The notes below the pieces were generated by a model. It saw only the letters and a list, made by a program, of their open reading frames with translations, did no database searches and was not told the origin of the DNA. Source: Gammaproteobacteria bacterium (GTDB lineage: Bacteria; Pseudomonadota; Gammaproteobacteria; Arenicellales; UBA868). From it: 64,000 nucleotides of DNA. Where the stretch lies: the NCBI GenBank assembly GCA_022450155.1, contig JAKUQR010000002.1:1-64000 (forward strand), written 5' to 3'. Both the position numbers and the translations under genes were made by a program. Shown in pieces: positions 327-41,840 of the stretch; the first letter of the stretch is position 1; each line of letters opens with the position of its first letter.

Positions 327-1670
327 TTATGGATCTTCGATGTGATGAACTTTGATTAGTTGTTCCCTAAACATTTTCGGTTGTAAGTGTCTTGCATAAT
401 GATCTCTTATCACTTGATACGACACATCACATTGTTCCGTTAGATACTCTATTGGGGTTCCTCCTTGTAACTCGGTCATAATGTAGAAGTGTCGTAGTGA
501 TTTTGAATCACGACGATCCCCGTTTATTGAATATCTCAACCCACCTTCAATGAGAAGTTCCCTAAAACCCAGATATGGATTAGTCGGGAATATCAAATCA
601 TCAGGTTTGTGGTCAGGACAAATGTTCTTACATAAACCACGATATGCAAAAAATGCACCATATTTAGAGATGATAGTTCTATCTCGTCGTTTCCCAATAA
701 TGAATATCTCTAAATGTTTCCTCTGGTCATCGTCATCATCCACCATCACGATGTCCTTGTGTTTGACCCTTTGTAGTTCGTAAGGTCTTACACCAGTGTG
801 TGCAAGAATGACGATGTAGTAGTGAAGATACATTCTTGAGAGAATATATTGTTCCCAACCACCACCAAAACTTTTCTTATTCTTGTCCTCTTTGAGTTTT
901 ATCTGTTCCCTTCGGGTCTCTTTTGCATCCCTTATTCTTTGTCGACTGACTTGTAGGATTTTTTTGTATTCACTACTTGTAAAGGTTCCACGACTTGGTG
1001 GTCTCTTCGACGAACCCATCTGTCTCATCAAAGACAAAGGTTTTTCTGGTCTCCCATTTATGAAACCTTTATCAAGACCCATCTGTAGTATCTGAAATAT
1101 GATCGTGTATTCTTTCTTCAGTCGAGTGTGTAGTAGGTCAGGTGATTTTATTCGTCGTGTTTCTCTCCATTTTTGCCATTTTAGAAGTCGTGGAGTATCT
1201 ATCTGTTCTACATAGTCGTTGATGAAGAAGGGTTGGATGTAGTTCTTGTATGAAATATTGTGGTCTTTGTAATAGTTCTTATGTCTAAGACCTGTTTCAC
1301 TACTTTTCTTACATAAATCTAACCACTCATTTGCAAGTTCATCAAACAAGTGGTCATCACGGTCTAACCGTTCAGTTGGTATTCCATCATCTAACTTGGA
1401 CAACATTTTCCCATACCACTTCTTTGCAATATTGATTGCAGTTGTGAGGTCATCTGTGTCGGTAGTTTTTTGTCTTGTCTTACCACCCAAGTAACATCTT
1501 GCATACCAGTTTCGACTTTTTGTTTTTTCCCAACCACTTTTATCTTTTACATACTGAAACAGGGTAATGACCTTGTCGTCCATTTGGATGTTGTGTCGAA
1601 CGGTTTGTCCTTTAGAGGACTTACTCCTACCATCCTTTGGGACGAGGAGTTTCCGATTAGTTTTCATCAT
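327..1670 (-). CDS. Tyrosine-type recombinase/integrase
   Basis: This 447-residue protein looks like a tyrosine recombinase, which cuts and rejoins DNA through a covalent 3'-phosphotyrosine. The C-terminal half carries the expected signature: an arginine in a HTGVRPYEL block, a second arginine in SLRHFY, and a likely catalytic tyrosine in DHYARHL near the C-terminus. The first ~200 residues are lysine-rich and would form the arm- and core-binding domains. It starts 12 bases after the serine recombinase stop, so the two are probably co-transcribed. Codon use is AT-rich and unlike the genes after 2.44 kb, which suggests horizontal acquisition. The spacing of the box II motif is unusual (SLRH rather than HxLRH), so it may be a divergent, perhaps phage- or island-type, enzyme. 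Confidence 0.8.
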   Translation of the reverse strand: MMKTNRKLLVPKDGRSKSSKGQTVRHNIQMDDKVITLFQYVKDKSGWEKTKSRNWYARCYLGGKTRQKTTDTDDLTTAINIAKKWYGKMLSKLDDGIPTERLDRDDHLFDELANEWLDLCKKSSETGLRHKNYYKDHNISYKNYIQPFFINDYVEQIDTPRLLKWQKWRETRRIKSPDLLHTRLKKEYTIIFQILQMGLDKGFINGRPEKPLSLMRQMGSSKRPPSRGTFTSSEYKKILQVSRQRIRDAKETRREQIKLKEDKNKKSFGGGWEQYILSRMYLHYYIVILAHTGVRPYELQRVKHKDIVMVDDDDDQRKHLEIFIIGKRRDRTIISKYGAFFAYRGLCKNICPDHKPDDLIFPTNPYLGFRELLIEGGLRYSINGDRRDSKSLRHFYIMTELQGGTPIEYLTEQCDVSYQVIRDHYARHLQPKMFREQLIKVHHIEDP

Positions 1671-1682
1671 ACAACTCGTTGG

Positions 1683-2288
1683 TTATGCAACTTCATCCAA
1701 AAGTTTGTAGAGTGTCCCTACTCCGATATTCAATGTCTTACAGACTTTTGTTTTAGACATTCCCCTATCAAGAAGTTCCACTACCGTTGTTTTAGTAGAA
1801 CTATTCACCATACTTGGACGACCGATAGGACGACCACTTTTGGTTCCGTTTTTCTTTGCATTTTCCATTCCTGACTTGACCCGTTCCCGAATAATGTTCC
1901 TCTCAAACTCTGCAAATACCCCACACATCTGGAACATCATCTTCCCTGTTGGTGTAGATGTATCCAGACCCTGTTGATGGATGTAGAGGTCAATGTTCTT
2001 TGACTGAACATCGTTGAGGAAAGAAACGAGGTCTTGTAATGAACGACCAAGACGGTCGATAGACCAAACTAGTATCCCATCAAACTTCTTTCTATTTACA
2101 TCCTTGAGAAGTCGGTCAAAGGATGGACGACCATTACGACCTAGAGAACCCGACAAACCTTTATCCAGGTATTCTTCTACAACTTCCCAACCATTTCGTC
2201 GTGATACTTCTCTGAGTTCTTCGAGTTGGTTCTGAACGGTTTGTTTATCGGTAGAAACCCTACCGTAAATGACTACTTTCTTGGTCAT
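1683..2288 (-). CDS. Serine recombinase (resolvase/invertase family)
   Basis: This 201-residue protein has the small serine recombinase layout. The N-terminal catalytic domain has nucleophile Ser12 in the YGRVSTDKQ motif, followed by the conserved WSIDRLGRS arginine block near residue 80 and a GVFAEFERNIIRER helix. A C-terminal helix-turn-helix follows (about 160-200, ending TLYKLLDEVA). Length matches Hin/Tn3-resolvase-type enzymes; it is neither a large serine integrase nor an IS607-type enzyme. A good Shine-Dalgarno (CAGGAG) lies about 9 bases before the ATG. It is the first gene of a two-recombinase unit and shares the AT-rich foreign composition. Confidence 0.88.
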   Translation of the reverse strand: MTKKVVIYGRVSTDKQTVQNQLEELREVSRRNGWEVVEEYLDKGLSGSLGRNGRPSFDRLLKDVNRKKFDGILVWSIDRLGRSLQDLVSFLNDVQSKNIDLYIHQQGLDTSTPTGKMMFQMCGVFAEFERNIIRERVKSGMENAKKNGTKSGRPIGRPSMVNSSTKTTVVELLDRGMSKTKVCKTLNIGVGTLYKLLDEVA

Positions 2289-7353: not shown

Positions 7354-8541
7354 TCAGGACAGATCAGTAGATTCTTTAGCAGCAAGCTTGGAAAGCGCCT
7401 GGTAAAGACCCGCAAGAAGTTGCGCTCTGGGCACCAGAGACGAAACGTAGATGTGTTCTGATTTGGTGTGTAGACCCTTGCCGTGTACGCCGAGGCCATC
7501 AAGCGTCGGTATACCCAGTGCACCGGTAAAGTTACCATCGCTGCCACCGCCGAACTGGCCATGATCAAGATTAAGACCTAACTCGGCCGCAACACTGGCT
7601 GCGATCTCATACAAGGCTAAAGTGCCGGCCGTGGGTTTAAATAAAGGACGAACAGGGCCAGCATCGACTTCAACACGCAGTTCTGGATCCCCAGTATCCA
7701 GAGCATCCATCTGCTGCCTGATCTCGTGGAATGCATTGGCTGTAGGTGCAACACACAGCACCTGAGCCTGGCATTGTGTAGGCACCACATTTACAAAATC
7801 TCCCCCCGATACAACACCGACTCGGTAAGTGATCTCGCGTTCAATATCGGATAGCGCCTCTATCTGGGTAATCAATCGGGCCATAGCACTGATCGCACTT
7901 CGGCCCGCACCCTGGGCAACGCCTGCATGTTGTGCTTTGCCGAATACCGTTAGTGTGAATCGGAGAAAGGCATGTCGCCCTGTCACCAGTTTTTCATCGT
8001 GTGCCGGTTCTGGCACCAGAACCCAACGACTTTTACGGGCTTCCGCTTCGATCAGTTTTCGGGTTGACGGACTGCCGATTTCTTCATCGGGAATGAACAT
8101 GAATGTGACAGGTACCGATAAAGCACTCTGTTTTTCGAGCACATGACCCAGCGCATGTACGGAGAGATACATCCCCCCCTTCATGTCCATCACACCCGGT
8201 CCATAGAGGCGGTCCCCGTCCCGCCGGATCGGCAGTGACTCTTTAAGTGTACCGACCAGGTGCACAGTATCCAGATGACCCAGTACCAAGATACCCGGTG
8301 TGGAGCCCCAGTTAAACCGAGCAGTAACCACATCCCCGTAACCATCGGCACCTGGTGTTCGCTCGACAGTTGCACCCAACGTTTCCATGGTTGATGAAGC
8401 GACATCCATCATCTGGTTCACAGCAAAGGGATCATAGCTTGGACTTTCAATGCTCGCCCAGTCAGCGATGGCAGATGCGATCAGTTCCGCATCCAACGGA
8501 TAAGTACTCGAATTAATCATGCCGCTATTGTTTTCCGTCAT
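7354..8541 (-). CDS. M20-family metallopeptidase (ArgE/carboxypeptidase G2-like)
   Basis: This is a cytoplasmic di-zinc hydrolase of about 395 residues that removes an acyl or amino-acid group from small amide substrates. Visible motifs are LGHLDTVH (zinc histidine and aspartate), GPGVMDMKGG (bridging aspartate), MFIPDEEIGS (catalytic glutamate pair) and QFGGGSDGNF. The ATG at 8541 was preferred because the next 30 codons upstream (to 8634) are cysteine- and histidine-rich and unlike the family; the ATG at 8520 is also possible. Length is normal for the group. It may supply substrates to the downstream PhyH gene, but spacing (94 bases) does not force co-transcription. Confidence 0.85.
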   Translation of the reverse strand: MTENNSGMINSSTYPLDAELIASAIADWASIESPSYDPFAVNQMMDVASSTMETLGATVERTPGADGYGDVVTARFNWGSTPGILVLGHLDTVHLVGTLKESLPIRRDGDRLYGPGVMDMKGGMYLSVHALGHVLEKQSALSVPVTFMFIPDEEIGSPSTRKLIEAEARKSRWVLVPEPAHDEKLVTGRHAFLRFTLTVFGKAQHAGVAQGAGRSAISAMARLITQIEALSDIEREITYRVGVVSGGDFVNVVPTQCQAQVLCVAPTANAFHEIRQQMDALDTGDPELRVEVDAGPVRPLFKPTAGTLALYEIAASVAAELGLNLDHGQFGGGSDGNFTGALGIPTLDGLGVHGKGLHTKSEHIYVSSLVPRAQLLAGLYQALSKLAAKESTDLS

Positions 8542-8726
8542 TTGCTCTGGAGGCCTATGATGACCGGAACCGTGGGAAGGCTCAATACTCAATTGACAGA
8601 ACTGCCGGACACACTTTCTTACACACTCATTCACAGGTATGGTAACGCTATCAGAACACTGTCATCTCCAGAAAATGGGGTATTACAGACAACCAATAGG
8701 GTCAAAACGATCTACGGAAACTACCC

Positions 8727-9218
8727 GTGAACAGAGCCTTTGTTAAAGAAGCTGACGGAGATGATGTCGTCGAACCGCTATACGAACGGCAACACAGTGA
8801 TCTGCCAAATTACATTACACCACAGGGTCTTTTACACCTGAAAAACAGAATTCGAGACCTCGAAAGAAGTATAGACGTCCTTTCGAAAACAGATACGTTA
8901 GAGAAAAATTCTCAGATAGCCCGCGCACAAAGCGATCGGCGTTATCTGCTGGAACGTGTGCGCAGAGCACAACCAGTTACACCGCCAGCATCACCTGAGA
9001 AGATCCAGTTCGGCGTCACTGCGGTGCTTGAGGATGAATCGGGTCAGTCGTACAGCTTTACCCTTGTCGGTGAGGACGAAACAGATATAGATCAGGGCAA
9101 AATCAGCTGGGCGACTCCGATTGGAAAACAACTCAGTGGTCGGGTAATCGGAGACCATATTGCCTGGTCGCGCGGAGACGAACAGATTCAACTGGAAATT
9201 GTAGACATCCGGTCTTAA
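8727..9218 (+). CDS. GreA/GreB-like factor lacking the acidic tip
   Basis: This 163-residue protein has the Gre layout: an N-terminal coiled coil (about 28-82) and a C-terminal FKBP-like domain (about 92-160), with VGEDETDIDQGKISWATPIG closely matching Gre proteins. True Gre factors rescue backtracked RNA polymerase by placing an acidic GDxSENAxY tip in the secondary channel. Here that stretch (about 53-70) reads TDTLEKNSQIARAQSD, with no such motif, so it may compete for the channel without stimulating cleavage. The opening MNRAFVKE is typical of GreB-like paralogues. It is a stand-alone plus-strand gene, divergent from the M20 peptidase. Confidence 0.85.
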   Translation: MNRAFVKEADGDDVVEPLYERQHSDLPNYITPQGLLHLKNRIRDLERSIDVLSKTDTLEKNSQIARAQSDRRYLLERVRRAQPVTPPASPEKIQFGVTAVLEDESGQSYSFTLVGEDETDIDQGKISWATPIGKQLSGRVIGDHIAWSRGDEQIQLEIVDIRS

Positions 9219-9275
9219 GTCAACCTATATATACCCACTTGGTTACCCGAACTGCACCCTTGAAATAACGACGCA

Positions 9276-10127
9276 ATGGCAAACACCACCCACAGCAGAC
9301 TCGTCAACGTGTTTTACGACACACACCCTATCAGCGAGTCGCAGGTGCTGGAAAAACTGGAACAAACCGGAGTCGATACATCGATTCTCACTGTTGAAGT
9401 ACTTCAACACCACGACCAAGACCATTTCGGTGGCTTGGCTGCTACCGAAGCGCTTGCTCACCATGCGCAAATCAACGAATCAACGCACGTGCTGGACCTG
9501 TGCTGTGGACTGGGCGGCCCTGCCCGTTATCTTGCGTATCATTATGGCTGCCGGGTTACCGGGGTTGATATGAATTCGGACCGCCTGGCCGGTGCTGTTC
9601 GTCTGACCGAAAGAACCAAACTGCAAGACCGCGTCCTATTCCACCATGCTAATGCTCTGCAAACAGGATTAGCTGATGAAACATTTGACGTTATCGTTTC
9701 GCAGGAAGCCTTTTGCCACATTCCAAACAAAAAGACACTAATGACTGAATGCGTCCGTCTTCTAAAACCCGACGGGCGCATTGTCTATACCGACATCCTT
9801 GCGCGTAGCAGTTTGACCAACGAGATTTGCTGTCGCCTGGAAAACGAAATGGTATTTTCTGAATTAAGCACATTGGAGCAATACTGCCACCTACTTGAGG
9901 AAAAGGGCTGCCACGTGGTCGAAGTAGAGGATCTGAGTGACGATTGGGCACAGATACTGATCGACCGACTCGCTATGTATCGAAGCTTAAAAGAACAGAC
10001 CGTTTCAAGTTTCGGCCTGGAGCATTTCCAAAAATGGGACCGCACCTACAGCTTTTTTGTCGGTCTGTATCGATCCGGTGAACTTGGTGGTGGGCGATTT
10101 GTAGCACACAAACCTAGATCGATCTGA
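9276..10127 (+). CDS. SAM-dependent methyltransferase (methyltransferase 11-like)
   Basis: This 283-residue class I methyltransferase binds S-adenosylmethionine through VLDLCCGLGGPARYLA (motif I, about residues 72-87) and VTGVDMNSD (motif II). AFCHIPNKKTL and LLKPDGRIVYTDIL follow as motifs post-II and III. The overall form resembles glycine/sarcosine or dimethylglycine N-methyltransferases and tocopherol methyltransferases, so a small-molecule N- or C-methyl acceptor is likely. The substrate cannot be fixed. It follows the Gre-like gene by 57 bases on the same strand and converges on a DMT exporter. Confidence 0.8.
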   Translation: MANTTHSRLVNVFYDTHPISESQVLEKLEQTGVDTSILTVEVLQHHDQDHFGGLAATEALAHHAQINESTHVLDLCCGLGGPARYLAYHYGCRVTGVDMNSDRLAGAVRLTERTKLQDRVLFHHANALQTGLADETFDVIVSQEAFCHIPNKKTLMTECVRLLKPDGRIVYTDILARSSLTNEICCRLENEMVFSELSTLEQYCHLLEEKGCHVVEVEDLSDDWAQILIDRLAMYRSLKEQTVSSFGLEHFQKWDRTYSFFVGLYRSGELGGGRFVAHKPRSI

Positions 10128-10151
10128 CAACGACAGTGTTTTCACGGTTGT

Positions 10152-11090
10152 TTATGATGATTCACGCCGCATCACGTAAAGCCCACTGCCGATTATCAGC
10201 ATAATCCCGATGACAGCGACTCTGTCCGGCGTTTCGGAATAGAACATCAATCCCCATACAACTGCACAAGGCATCGCAACATATTCAAATGGCGCAATCA
10301 CAGACGCTGAAGCCAGTCGATAACCGCGGGTGACCAGATAAGTACCCGCGGCGCTCACCGACCCCATCAAAGCCCAGAGAGCCAGATCAGACTCTGCGGG
10401 CAGCGTCCAGCTCCGAAGGAGAAACTGCAGACTTGGATGACCGACATCGCTGAACTGTCCCCTGCCGGTCAACATACCCATAACCGCACTCGCTATGAGT
10501 AATGAAATCTGTGCATAAGCAACCATTGTCGCGGTCGAGGCTGTCGTATGCATATGCCGTGTCAATAGCTGCATGCAGCAATAGGCAAACGCTGCCCCGA
10601 TCGCGAGTAGCCCTTCCCAGCGTATGGCCTCCGTACCGGGCCGCAACATGATCACCACACCGACCATACCTATAGCAACGCTTGACCATCGTGCAAGACC
10701 CACAGATTCTTTTAGCAAGACAGCCGACAGTGCTGTGATCAGCACTGGTGCGATAAAAAATATGGCTACCACTTCGGCAACCGGCATCTTGACCATTGCC
10801 AGGAAGAAACAAGTGTTTGCCACGACCAACATCAAGCCACGCAACACCAACAAGGAAAAACTCGACGAGTAAAGCTGTTGAAGTCCCCCACTCATTAGCA
10901 GTATGACCAACGTCAACGACAGTGCAACAGTTGCTCGCACTAACATCACCTCGTGCAACGCATAGGAATCGGCAAACAGTTTTACCATTGCATCTTGAAG
11001 GGAAACCATCACAATGCCACCCACCATCGAAACGATGCCCATCATCTTCGGTGAAAGCATATGTGGTGTCCCGAATCTTATTATGAGCAC
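10152..11090 (-). CDS. EamA/DMT-family transporter
   Basis: This 312-residue inner-membrane protein has about ten hydrophobic segments in two EamA repeats, the drug/metabolite transporter pattern. Features include an early SLQDAMVKLFA motif after TM1, a PVAEVVAIFFIAPVL block and a second-repeat ASVIAPFEYVAMPCAVVWG segment. Such proteins usually export amino acids or other small metabolites by proton antiport. It is one of four DMT transporters in the window. It converges with the methyltransferase gene 24 bases away, and no intrinsic terminator is visible between them. Confidence 0.88.
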   Translation of the reverse strand: MLIIRFGTPHMLSPKMMGIVSMVGGIVMVSLQDAMVKLFADSYALHEVMLVRATVALSLTLVILLMSGGLQQLYSSSFSLLVLRGLMLVVANTCFFLAMVKMPVAEVVAIFFIAPVLITALSAVLLKESVGLARWSSVAIGMVGVVIMLRPGTEAIRWEGLLAIGAAFAYCCMQLLTRHMHTTASTATMVAYAQISLLIASAVMGMLTGRGQFSDVGHPSLQFLLRSWTLPAESDLALWALMGSVSAAGTYLVTRGYRLASASVIAPFEYVAMPCAVVWGLMFYSETPDRVAVIGIMLIIGSGLYVMRRESS

Positions 11091-11288
11091 AGCTTCGGAT
11101 TACAACTACTTAGAAAAATACACGTTGCCGACACTGTTAAAGCCATAGGATACCTGCCGCGAACCTGGTGAACTACGCCTGGTGCAACAATAAAGATCCG
11201 TCACTGATCCTTAAATCGAAACCAATCATCTTGATAAATCCCATCGGCCCGTTTTTTCTACAGATGATGCGATCAGGGTAACCAGATT

Positions 11289-16063: not shown

Positions 16064-16273
16064 ATGAGCTCATTCGAAGACCAGTTTTATCGTACAGACC
16101 GAGCCGTTTGGCCCCGTATCAAACGGGACCTCTTGCTCGCGATATGGATCGCTAGACTGATCTTGACCTGGTTTACCCAGGGTCGACGTCTACGCAAGGC
16201 GAGCTGCCGCGCATTGCGTGAAGAAAACGTGTTGTACCTGGACGACCTTATAAATTCTGAAGACGATGACTAA
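16064..16273 (+). CDS. Small protein coupled to the RdhA-like gene
   Basis: A 69-residue protein with one hydrophobic stretch (about 23-38, LLLAIWIARLILTWFT) between basic flanks and an acidic C-terminus (NSEDDD). It overlaps the next gene by eight bases, so the two are translationally coupled. No family was recognised. Size and position recall small RdhB-type membrane anchors of reductive dehalogenases, but those normally have two or three helices, so this is only an analogy. Confidence 0.6.
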   Translation: MSSFEDQFYRTDRAVWPRIKRDLLLAIWIARLILTWFTQGRRLRKASCRALREENVLYLDDLINSEDDD

Positions 16274-17231
16274 GCGATTCCCAACACCGGACTACCATTT
16301 CAGTTATCGAATTCCACCTGTTTCAGGCAATACGATCAATGGCCTGGGAGAGACGTCGCCTCGTCGTGCTCGCCAGGTATTCCACGGATCTGGGGCACGA
16401 AAACTGGAGTGGGTTGCTTTGGAAATGTTCTTTGGGCTGACAATGCCTTTGCACATTTTCATTCGAAATGCACTTAACCGCTGGGAACTGCGCAAAGCTG
16501 ACGGTCCACTTGCCCGGAAACGCACACCAGTTCCCGATTCCGCAGAGATGTCCAAGCAAATCAAGTCAATCGCAAAACAGGCGGGTGCCGGTGCTGTTGG
16601 CATCACACCAATGACCGAAGATGCATTGTTCGAAGGGCAGACGGCGGATTACCAGACAGCTATCGTGATTGCGTTGCCCCAGGACTACGAAACCATGAAG
16701 GCGGTCACCACAGTTAAGGCCGCGGCAGAAACCGTCGATACCTACCGGGATGTCTCCCGAATCGTGATGGCGCTGGCTGCACATATCCGAAGTCTTGGCT
16801 GGCGTGCGCGCGCCTATGGGGAGAGCGCCGACCTCCTACACATCCCCCTTGCCATCAATGCTGGTATCGGTCAACTGGGCAAACATGGCTCGGTCATCGG
16901 CACTGAGTTCGGTTCCAATTTCAGACTGGCGAGTGTGCTGACAGATATTCCCCTAGCGATAGACTCAGCGGTCGATATCGGCGTTGATGATCTGTGCCTG
17001 GGCTGTCAACGTTGCACGATCGATTGTCCTGCAGACGCAATCAGTGATCAACGGCAATGGGTCCGCGGCAAAAAGAAATGGTACGTGGACTTTGACCGAT
17101 GTGTGATGTACTTCGTTAAAACACTCGGCTGTGGTATCTGTATAGAAGTCTGTCCATGGAGTCGCCCTGGGCGTGGCCGATCGCTGTCACAAACGCTGCT
17201 CGCAAAACGAGCAAAACGCGATCCGACATGA
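16266..17231 (+). CDS. Reductive dehalogenase-like / QueG-like double 4Fe-4S protein
   Basis: This 321-residue protein has a nitroreductase-like corrinoid-binding region (about 95-235) of the RdhA/QueG superfamily: AKQAGAGAVGITPM, DTYRDVSRIVMALAAHIRSLGW, and AINAGIGQLGKHGSVIGTEF. Two ferredoxin clusters follow: Cys244, 247, 250, 254 and Cys279, 289, 292, 296. No twin-arginine signal is present, so it is probably cytoplasmic. Families with this layout use cobalamin to remove halogen or oxygen from organic substrates. QueG itself is expected to carry a C-terminal HEAT-like domain, absent here. It overlaps the small upstream protein. The N-terminal about 90 residues are not conserved with anything recognised. 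Confidence 0.78.
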   Translation: MTKRFPTPDYHFSYRIPPVSGNTINGLGETSPRRARQVFHGSGARKLEWVALEMFFGLTMPLHIFIRNALNRWELRKADGPLARKRTPVPDSAEMSKQIKSIAKQAGAGAVGITPMTEDALFEGQTADYQTAIVIALPQDYETMKAVTTVKAAAETVDTYRDVSRIVMALAAHIRSLGWRARAYGESADLLHIPLAINAGIGQLGKHGSVIGTEFGSNFRLASVLTDIPLAIDSAVDIGVDDLCLGCQRCTIDCPADAISDQRQWVRGKKKWYVDFDRCVMYFVKTLGCGICIEVCPWSRPGRGRSLSQTLLAKRAKRDPT

Positions 17232-40622: not shown

Positions 40623-41840
40623 CTAAGGACGGGTAACCGACCTGATTCTCTTCCACCAGTCCGTACTTTGTTTACGCTTTCCCCGCCTGCTGAGTTGTTC
40701 CAGTTTTATCAGCAGTCCCCTGGCCGGCGTCCTGGCGAACCAACGCCATACTCGATTCCACAGGAATCCGAAATCCCTGTTCCAGGGACAGACCCGTAGG
40801 CAAATCGCGCAGTCACTGCTCAAATCAGCCCAGAAACTGAAACACTTTTCAGCGTCTGAGGTCCACTTGATCACACCTTGTATTGCTGATCTGTTGGGCT
40901 GTACGTCCGACGGTGGCCCGCTGGGCAATGCTTTAACCGGACAGGCATCGACACAACGGGTACAAACATCACAGAACCGGCGTACTCCGAGCAACCGGGG
41001 TTGGTCGTGTACCAACGGCAGGTCAGTCAGCACTTTTGAGAATCTGACTCTGGGACCGTACTCCGGCGTGATCACCAGCTGGTTACGGGCATACTCACCG
41101 AGACCCGCCTGGAGTGCATAGGGGATCACCAATGCCGAGTCATTCATGGAACCGACCGCTTGCCAGCCCAGATTACGAATATACTGTGACAAGCGAATTA
41201 CCGTAGCTGCCTCTTCAGAATAGGCATTTCCCGTCGCTGCACCTGCGACTGCCGACGGGTAGGTGTCTACCATAGCCCTATCCATTTCGTGCCCCAATAC
41301 CACGACTGATGTCAGACCTTCAGGTAAACCGGTATCGTGTTCTTCGAATGTGGTCGAGCTTACCCGGTTGGCATACGTCCAGCGTGGGTCATACGGGGCT
41401 ATGCCAACGATCCCCGCGCCAAACAGCTTCGCGATATGCTTGATCTCAGCCGTCATAGCGTCACGATCCTCGACCTCGACCCGCTCTGCTGCGACCTGCG
41501 CAGTGGGCCGCAGAGGCGCGTTGAAACCTTCCCGAATACCCTGCGACTCTCCACGACTGGAAAATTCGTCTGAAACCGCCCAGGCAGCATTGCGCAGTGC
41601 AAAATCTTTCTGAGTAAACCCACCACCACGTCGGAAACTGGGTGTCTTTCGGTAAGAATCAAAAAACGCCATCATCTCCGGACGACGAATTTCGTCATCC
41701 CAGAAAGCCCGATTGAACATGTCATTGCGTTGACTGAAACGGGCAAACCTGTCGGTCGTCTGAATGCCCGCCGCAGCATCGCGTCGTTCCCTATCGGCGG
41801 CAGTCACCGGCGAGGTGTTAACGTTTGTTCTGTGATTCAC
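40623..41840 (-). CDS. Second reductive dehalogenase-like double 4Fe-4S protein
   Basis: This 405-residue protein shares the RdhA layout more clearly than the copy at 16.3 kb. A corrinoid-domain start GAGIVGIAPYDPRW is followed by Tyr207 in NAYSEEAATVIRLSQYIR, at the place where a catalytic tyrosine would be expected. LGEYARNQLVITPEYGPRVR and TDLPLVHDQPRLLGV precede two clusters: Cys290, 293, 296, 300 and Cys333, 344, 347, 351. The first about 100 residues are arginine-rich and polar with no twin-arginine signal, so a cytoplasmic location is likely. Length is close to respiratory RdhA without its signal. The tail is basic and tryptophan-rich (WNRVWRWFAR). No RdhB-like gene is next to it. Confidence 0.82.
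   Translation of the reverse strand: MNHRTNVNTSPVTAADRERRDAAAGIQTTDRFARFSQRNDMFNRAFWDDEIRRPEMMAFFDSYRKTPSFRRGGGFTQKDFALRNAAWAVSDEFSSRGESQGIREGFNAPLRPTAQVAAERVEVEDRDAMTAEIKHIAKLFGAGIVGIAPYDPRWTYANRVSSTTFEEHDTGLPEGLTSVVVLGHEMDRAMVDTYPSAVAGAATGNAYSEEAATVIRLSQYIRNLGWQAVGSMNDSALVIPYALQAGLGEYARNQLVITPEYGPRVRFSKVLTDLPLVHDQPRLLGVRRFCDVCTRCVDACPVKALPSGPPSDVQPNRSAIQGVIKWTSDAEKCFSFWADLSSDCAICLRVCPWNRDFGFLWNRVWRWFARTPARGLLIKLEQLSRRGKRKQSTDWWKRIRSVTRP

Follow-up and report, generated by a model that had tools for sequence, protein, structure and literature searches.

Reductive dehalogenases (RdhAs) have been divided into respiratory enzymes, transmembrane enzymes and two catabolic subfamilies that carry a vestigial duplicated domain, and the characterised enzymes of the BhbA/NpRdhA type act on ortho-halophenols (PMC10463259). 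For PceA of S. multivorans (SmPceA), Y246 probably supplies the proton at ortho positions, and the ring that limits access to the cobalt includes R305, W376 and N272 (PMC5500849); the structural equivalents of Y246 and R305 in D. hafniense PceA (DhPceA) are Y337 and R396 (PMC10624902). A 2026 report (PMC13101508) described Ros_A3X954 from Roseobacter sp. MED193, an RdhA without a Tat signal that has the motifs CDICTKCADACP at 283-294 and CAICMRVCP at 337-345 and is 72.2% identical to A0A2T7UTL8 of Pararhodobacter aggregans. Purified Ros_A3X954 contains about 8 Fe along with some Co, turns 2,6-dibromophenol into 2-bromophenol (kcat 1.1 per second, KM 71 µM) and is oxygen-sensitive, its activity being lost in oxygen, while A0A2T7UTL8 deiodinates 2,4,6-triiodophenol to phenol (PMC13101508).

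The gene considered here occupies positions 40623..41840 on the minus strand (it starts with GTG at 41840 and stops at 40623) of a 64,000-nucleotide stretch of DNA, hereafter the window, from a marine gammaproteobacterial assembly (3.2 Mb, 77 contigs) whose named relatives are 'Acidiferrobacteraceae bacterium NP122' and REDSEA-S15_B12. The initial annotation had placed an RdhA-like open reading frame at this position and on this strand, and both hold: the encoded 405-aa protein scores 162.4 bits (2.3e-47) with the RDH profile of NCBIfam (TIGR02486), above its curated cut-off of 160.35 bits, and a PDB sequence search returned DhPceA at the top (8q4h, 2.7e-49), together with SmPceA (4uqu, 1.9e-42), NpRdhA (4ras, 2.6e-25) and, lower, QueG (2.7e-10). 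The match to the Pfam Dehalogenase model is weak (20.8 bits against a cut-off of 24.3). An orthologue from the same genus is 92% identical with a dN/dS of 0.145, so that the gene looks functional and under purifying selection. Judged from its sequence, it is a genuine reductive dehalogenase gene (rdhA), and it represents a known enzyme type, not a novel kind of system, since other members of its clade have been produced and assayed.

As phmmer alignments of the 405-aa protein with both PceA enzymes run without gaps across the catalytic region, the published PceA residues map directly onto it, the mapping being confined to this ungapped block (PceA Trp56, Trp96 and Tyr102, in the N-terminal third, lie outside). 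Tyr207 (codon 41220..41222, minus strand, as for all features of the gene) aligns with the proton donor SmPceA Tyr246/DhPceA Tyr337, Asn233 (41142..41144) with SmPceA Asn272, Arg266 (41043..41045) with SmPceA Arg305/DhPceA Arg396, and Trp337 (40830..40832) with SmPceA Trp376, a wall of the substrate pocket. All eight cluster cysteines are present: the first [4Fe-4S] motif, C290-x2-C293-x2-C296-x3-C300-P (40938..40973), was recognized by a Fer4_16 match and the residue table, and the second, C333-x10-C344-x2-C347-x3-C351-P (40785..40844), by a profile match and the same table. Both RdhA cluster motifs, CX2CX2CX3CP and CX2CX3CP, are thus in place along with C333, and the cysteine spacing and the tyrosine that had been read at the outset as fitting an RdhA are confirmed. 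Across a 56-member family alignment Y207, N233, R266, K269, W337 and the eight cysteines are invariant; some positions near the conserved motifs, for example Y150 and W353, vary among clade members. We also inspected the corrinoid contacts, as the initial annotation had proposed. Of the polar contacts listed for DhPceA, which include H395 and K399 (PMC10624902), the ungapped block retains K399 (SmPceA K308) as K269 but not H395. The same holds for SmPceA, which is proven to use a corrinoid and has V304 in place of the histidine, so that this loss is no argument against B12 binding.

An AlphaFold2 model built from the family alignment (mean pLDDT 77, pTM 0.83) is weak at the loop ~195-205 and in part of the N-terminal third. 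With this model, the top 36 Foldseek matches were all PceA or NpRdhA entries, and VIA-align gave Z scores of 35.2 over 371 residues for DhPceA (8q4h), 31.2 for SmPceA (4uqu), 28.9 for NpRdhA, 15.3 for QueG and 7.3 for the B12 chaperone MMACHC. The predicted structure matches the RdhA fold with its corrinoid domain, and corrinoid binding is predicted from it; the refuting outcome named initially, a model with no cobalamin pocket, did not occur at the level of the fold.

At the N-terminus we looked for a twin-arginine motif and a hydrophobic stretch and found neither. The hydropathy peak over the first 60 residues (15-residue windows) is -0.09, and the N-terminal transmembrane helices of hybrid RdhAs are thus absent. 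The Tat test, which detected signals in three Tat-bearing RdhAs used as controls (L111, L120 and L121), found none in 74 relatives from the protein's clade either. The flanking genes encode an EamA transporter (306 aa) and an MscS-type channel (282 aa), and the intervening gaps, about 100 and 80 bases long, are too short for an rdhB; no rdhB-like small gene adjoins 40623-41840, and there is no rdh accessory cluster. The initial reading of a protein with neither a Tat signal nor an RdhB partner gene therefore stands, and with no export motif, no hydrophobic stretch and no room for rdhB the protein is most likely cytoplasmic. It resembles respiratory PceA (4uqu, 8q4h) in its full-length fold (Z 31-35), its Tyr, Asn, Arg and Trp sites and its two [4Fe-4S] clusters, but differs in lacking a Tat signal and an adjacent RdhB, the identity over the structural alignment being 26-29%.

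The close homologues come from marine metagenome-assembled genomes (MAGs) of the same genus and family, and those at about 60% identity include many from Rhodobacteraceae and sponge-type Rhodospirillaceae. One genome scan yielded 271 candidate stretches that encode a relative, and the best 80 of the 271, which were kept, are mostly from marine Rhodobacteraceae. In a tree of 49 catalytic cores, the Tat-less proteins of ~390-405 aa form one group (99/97), here labelled 'short405'. The phylogeny called for at the outset thus places the protein with RdhAs and not with unrelated Fe-S oxidoreductases, and identity as a general Fe-S oxidoreductase is ruled out by scores, residues and tree.

Both assayed Tat-less enzymes appear to belong to this clade. 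Many of its members, many of them from roseobacters, carry the exact Ros_A3X954 strings at 283 and 337, and those from roseobacters are 70-74% identical to a P. aggregans gene (L078) that falls inside the clade together with them (SH-aLRT 97). Apart from L078, the P. aggregans genome yielded a single RdhA, a fused type of 1067 aa, and fused types are about 28% identical to the window protein; the published 72.2% can therefore refer only to the short P. aggregans protein, from which we infer that L078 is A0A2T7UTL8. By motif strings, motif positions, identity and tree, Ros_A3X954 and A0A2T7UTL8 are thus attributable to the clade. The window protein, 57.5% identical to L078, is akin to them in its clade, in the length range of ~390-405 aa, in having no Tat signal and in the same two cluster motifs; it differs in its gammaproteobacterial host, which probably imports B12, in its gene neighbourhood, and in that its dehalogenation is predicted.

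In light of these data we consider it likely that the 405-aa protein is a soluble, cytoplasmic and non-respiratory cobalamin/[4Fe-4S] reductive dehalogenase of the Ros_A3X954/A0A2T7UTL8 clade, with a halophenol substrate assigned by homology. Its activity, substrate class, electron donor and physiological role we infer as follows. The cobalamin-binding core domain would bind imported B12 in the base-off form. A carrier of low potential, ferredoxin or flavodoxin, would feed electrons via the two clusters to the cobalt, and the proton would come from Tyr207, backed by Arg266, such that (ortho-)halogenated phenols would lose Br, I or Cl by reduction. The reaction would serve to salvage carbon or to detoxify natural halophenols of marine origin, and not to respire. 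The original suggestion of catabolic rather than respiratory dehalogenation accordingly finds support in the fold, the catalytic residues, the clade, the Tat-less N-terminus, the missing RdhB neighbour and the two relatives active on bromo- and iodophenols (PMC13101508).

The gene neighbourhood turned out to be uninformative on the substrate. No gene for a dedicated electron donor or a halophenol pathway adjoins the rdhA gene, the EamA, MscS and transglycosylase neighbours in the window and in close kin give no clue, and the pirin, hydroxyisobutyrate-dehydrogenase-like, TetR and LysR neighbours seen in roseobacters only are absent from both. In two sponge/marine Rhodospirillaceae MAGs (L036 and L049, ~7850-11140), rdhA lies, by eye, directly after hisC- and tyrA-like genes, which may point to substrates of a halogenated tyrosine type. 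Some room is therefore left for a dehalogenase of the same clade that acts on another natural substrate (halogenated tyrosine derivatives, bromopyrroles or haloaliphatics) and serves detoxification instead of carbon supply. With an identity of only about 57% to the closest tested enzyme that is attributable to the clade, a change of substrate is conceivable, both tested enzymes come from outside the gammaproteobacterial branch, and the variable positions Y150 and W353, the hisC/tyrA-like arrangement and the richness of the window region in amino- and carboxylic-acid catabolism genes are all in keeping with such a shift. However, every catalytic position examined is unchanged across the clade and both tested members act on halophenols, so that we regard another substrate as possible but rather unlikely.

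The predicted halophenol dehalogenase is catabolic in the sense of being non-respiratory, but this part of the initial wording does not extend to membership of the BhbA/NpRdhA type. Like the 405-aa protein, BhbA and NpRdhA are cytoplasmic and non-respiratory; they have, however, a duplicated vestigial cobalamin domain, a Lys at the position of Arg266 and no equivalent of Trp337, and most carry a fused reductase. The 405-aa protein has a single cobalamin domain, a second weak domain match being found only in proteins of 750-1100 aa, and by architecture none of the published subfamilies (PMC10463259) fits the short clade. In the tree of catalytic cores the BhbA/NpRdhA-type proteins form a clade of their own (100/100), and the short Tat-less clade stands beside the respiratory RdhAs (86/83). 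Forcing the short clade together with the BhbA type was not rejected (p-AU 0.078), and the affinity of the short clade to the respiratory side is therefore favoured but not proven. We find it unlikely that the 405-aa protein is a BhbA/NpRdhA-type catabolic RdhA that has shed its vestigial and reductase domains: the joint clade survives the AU test and both types are cytoplasmic, but the free tree separates them, Arg266 is not replaced by Lys, Trp337 is kept, and the host already has a separate protein of the BhbA/NpRdhA type (contig C22, 737 aa).

A different B12-dependent reduction, such as an epoxide reduction akin to that of QueG, appears slightly less probable still. RdhA and QueG have a common fold and share a core of cobalamin and two [4Fe-4S] clusters, and the QueG profile (TIGR00276) does match the 405-aa protein (9.6e-14). 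Yet the RDH profile matches far more strongly, the structural overlap with QueG is shorter (Z about 15), QueG has an active-site Asp where the 405-aa protein has the Asn233 of RdhAs, the PceA-type Arg266 and Trp337 are present, a true QueG-like gene lies elsewhere in the host genome (on C7), and the tested clade members dehalogenate. Identity as QueG itself is ruled out by the scores (51.1 bits against a cut-off of 200), by Asn233 and by the tree. A respiratory dehalogenase for organohalide respiration, for which the position of the clade near respiratory RdhAs and the retained PceA-type active site could be cited, is highly improbable, as the Tat and rdhB tests exclude that role and relatives occur in cultured roseobacters, which are generally grown as aerobes.

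The window encodes a second RdhA-like protein (321 aa; 16266-17231, plus strand), which scores 122.2 bits with TIGR02486, under the RDH cut-off, and falls into a third clade (96/91) of ~325-aa proteins whose N-terminal part is shorter. The Tyr and the Arg are retained, the Asn at the N233 position is lacking and a Phe stands for Trp337; the protein may have a function other than dehalogenation. The initial annotation had reported two divergent copies within 25 kb and suggested a common role for them. The first part is correct: the genes are 24-25 kb apart, and recent duplication as their origin is rejected, a forced joint grouping giving a p-AU of 1e-98. The joint assignment is not warranted, since the copies belong to different deep clades and the 321-aa protein lacks the active-site Asn, so that the two may well catalyse different reactions.

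Both genes sit in a conserved block, the gene order of about 33 kb (window ~13576-48813; G007 C64; G002 C79) being mostly preserved in a second genus of the family. Because the order from ~13.6 to 47 kb is so conserved, a recent mobile island carrying the rdhA gene is unsupported. Neither Rfam nor tRNA scanning of the window gave a match. Near its left end (327-2288, minus strand), integrase- and resolvase-like genes were noted by eye in a stretch of low GC content (38.7% versus about 53%), which suggests a mobile element there.

Besides QueG, the host genome encodes four proteins of the RdhA superfamily, two in the window, one on C22 and one on C24. The 737-aa protein on C22 (19.1-21.3 kb; L027/L132) is of the NpRdhA type with a vestigial domain and no fused reductase, and its gene adjoins ribosomal L13/S9 genes and a glycolate-oxidase-like cluster. 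The 326-aa protein on C24 (37.9-38.9 kb; L133) is encoded between two PhyH-type dioxygenase genes and, like QueG, has an Asp where the 405-aa protein has N233.

A search for cobalamin genes, also proposed initially, turned up an uptake locus on contig 23 (G000 C23:28.0-33.0 kb; L131:8075-12940) with BtuC-, BtuD-, BtuB- and BtuF-like genes and two cobalamin riboswitches, the BtuB-like receptor scoring 554.7 bits with TIGR01779, slightly below the cut-off of 599.7. The corrin-ring synthesis markers CobN and CobB/CbiA were not found in the host genome, and together with the riboswitch-associated Btu-like genes this indicates that the host probably imports B12. The description of the genome as aerobic-looking found only indirect support: dioxygenase genes are present in the window, and genomes of the same genus and family have haem-copper oxidases, but none was found in the host bin (95.5% complete), which is probably a gap in the bin. 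Cytochrome bd was not found in any of the four genomes searched (the host bin and relatives). The oxygen sensitivity of Ros_A3X954 is awkward here, as it fits poorly with the presumed aerobic life of the host.

Tentatively, and with somewhat less than even confidence, we propose that the short Tat-less clade is a separate cytoplasmic lineage that arose from the respiratory side by loss of both export and anchoring, independently of the BhbA/NpRdhA type, that it represents a widespread and overlooked halophenol sink in aerobic marine bacteria, and that this gammaproteobacterial family has kept it in a conserved block with a second, functionally different RdhA-like protein. The label 'catabolic RdhA' spans at least two architectures. 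To the tested enzymes, our analysis adds a gammaproteobacterial branch, a conserved neighbourhood that also contains another, divergent RdhA-like gene, and an architecture unlike that of the textbook catabolic RdhAs. It links the window gene to enzymes shown to debrominate and deiodinate phenols, and extends predicted B12-dependent reductive dehalogenation to a marine lineage of uncultured gammaproteobacteria, one that probably relies on imported B12. Given the number of stretches that encode a relative, the best 80 of them mostly from marine Rhodobacteraceae, this activity may be relevant to the turnover of bromophenols of natural origin in seawater.
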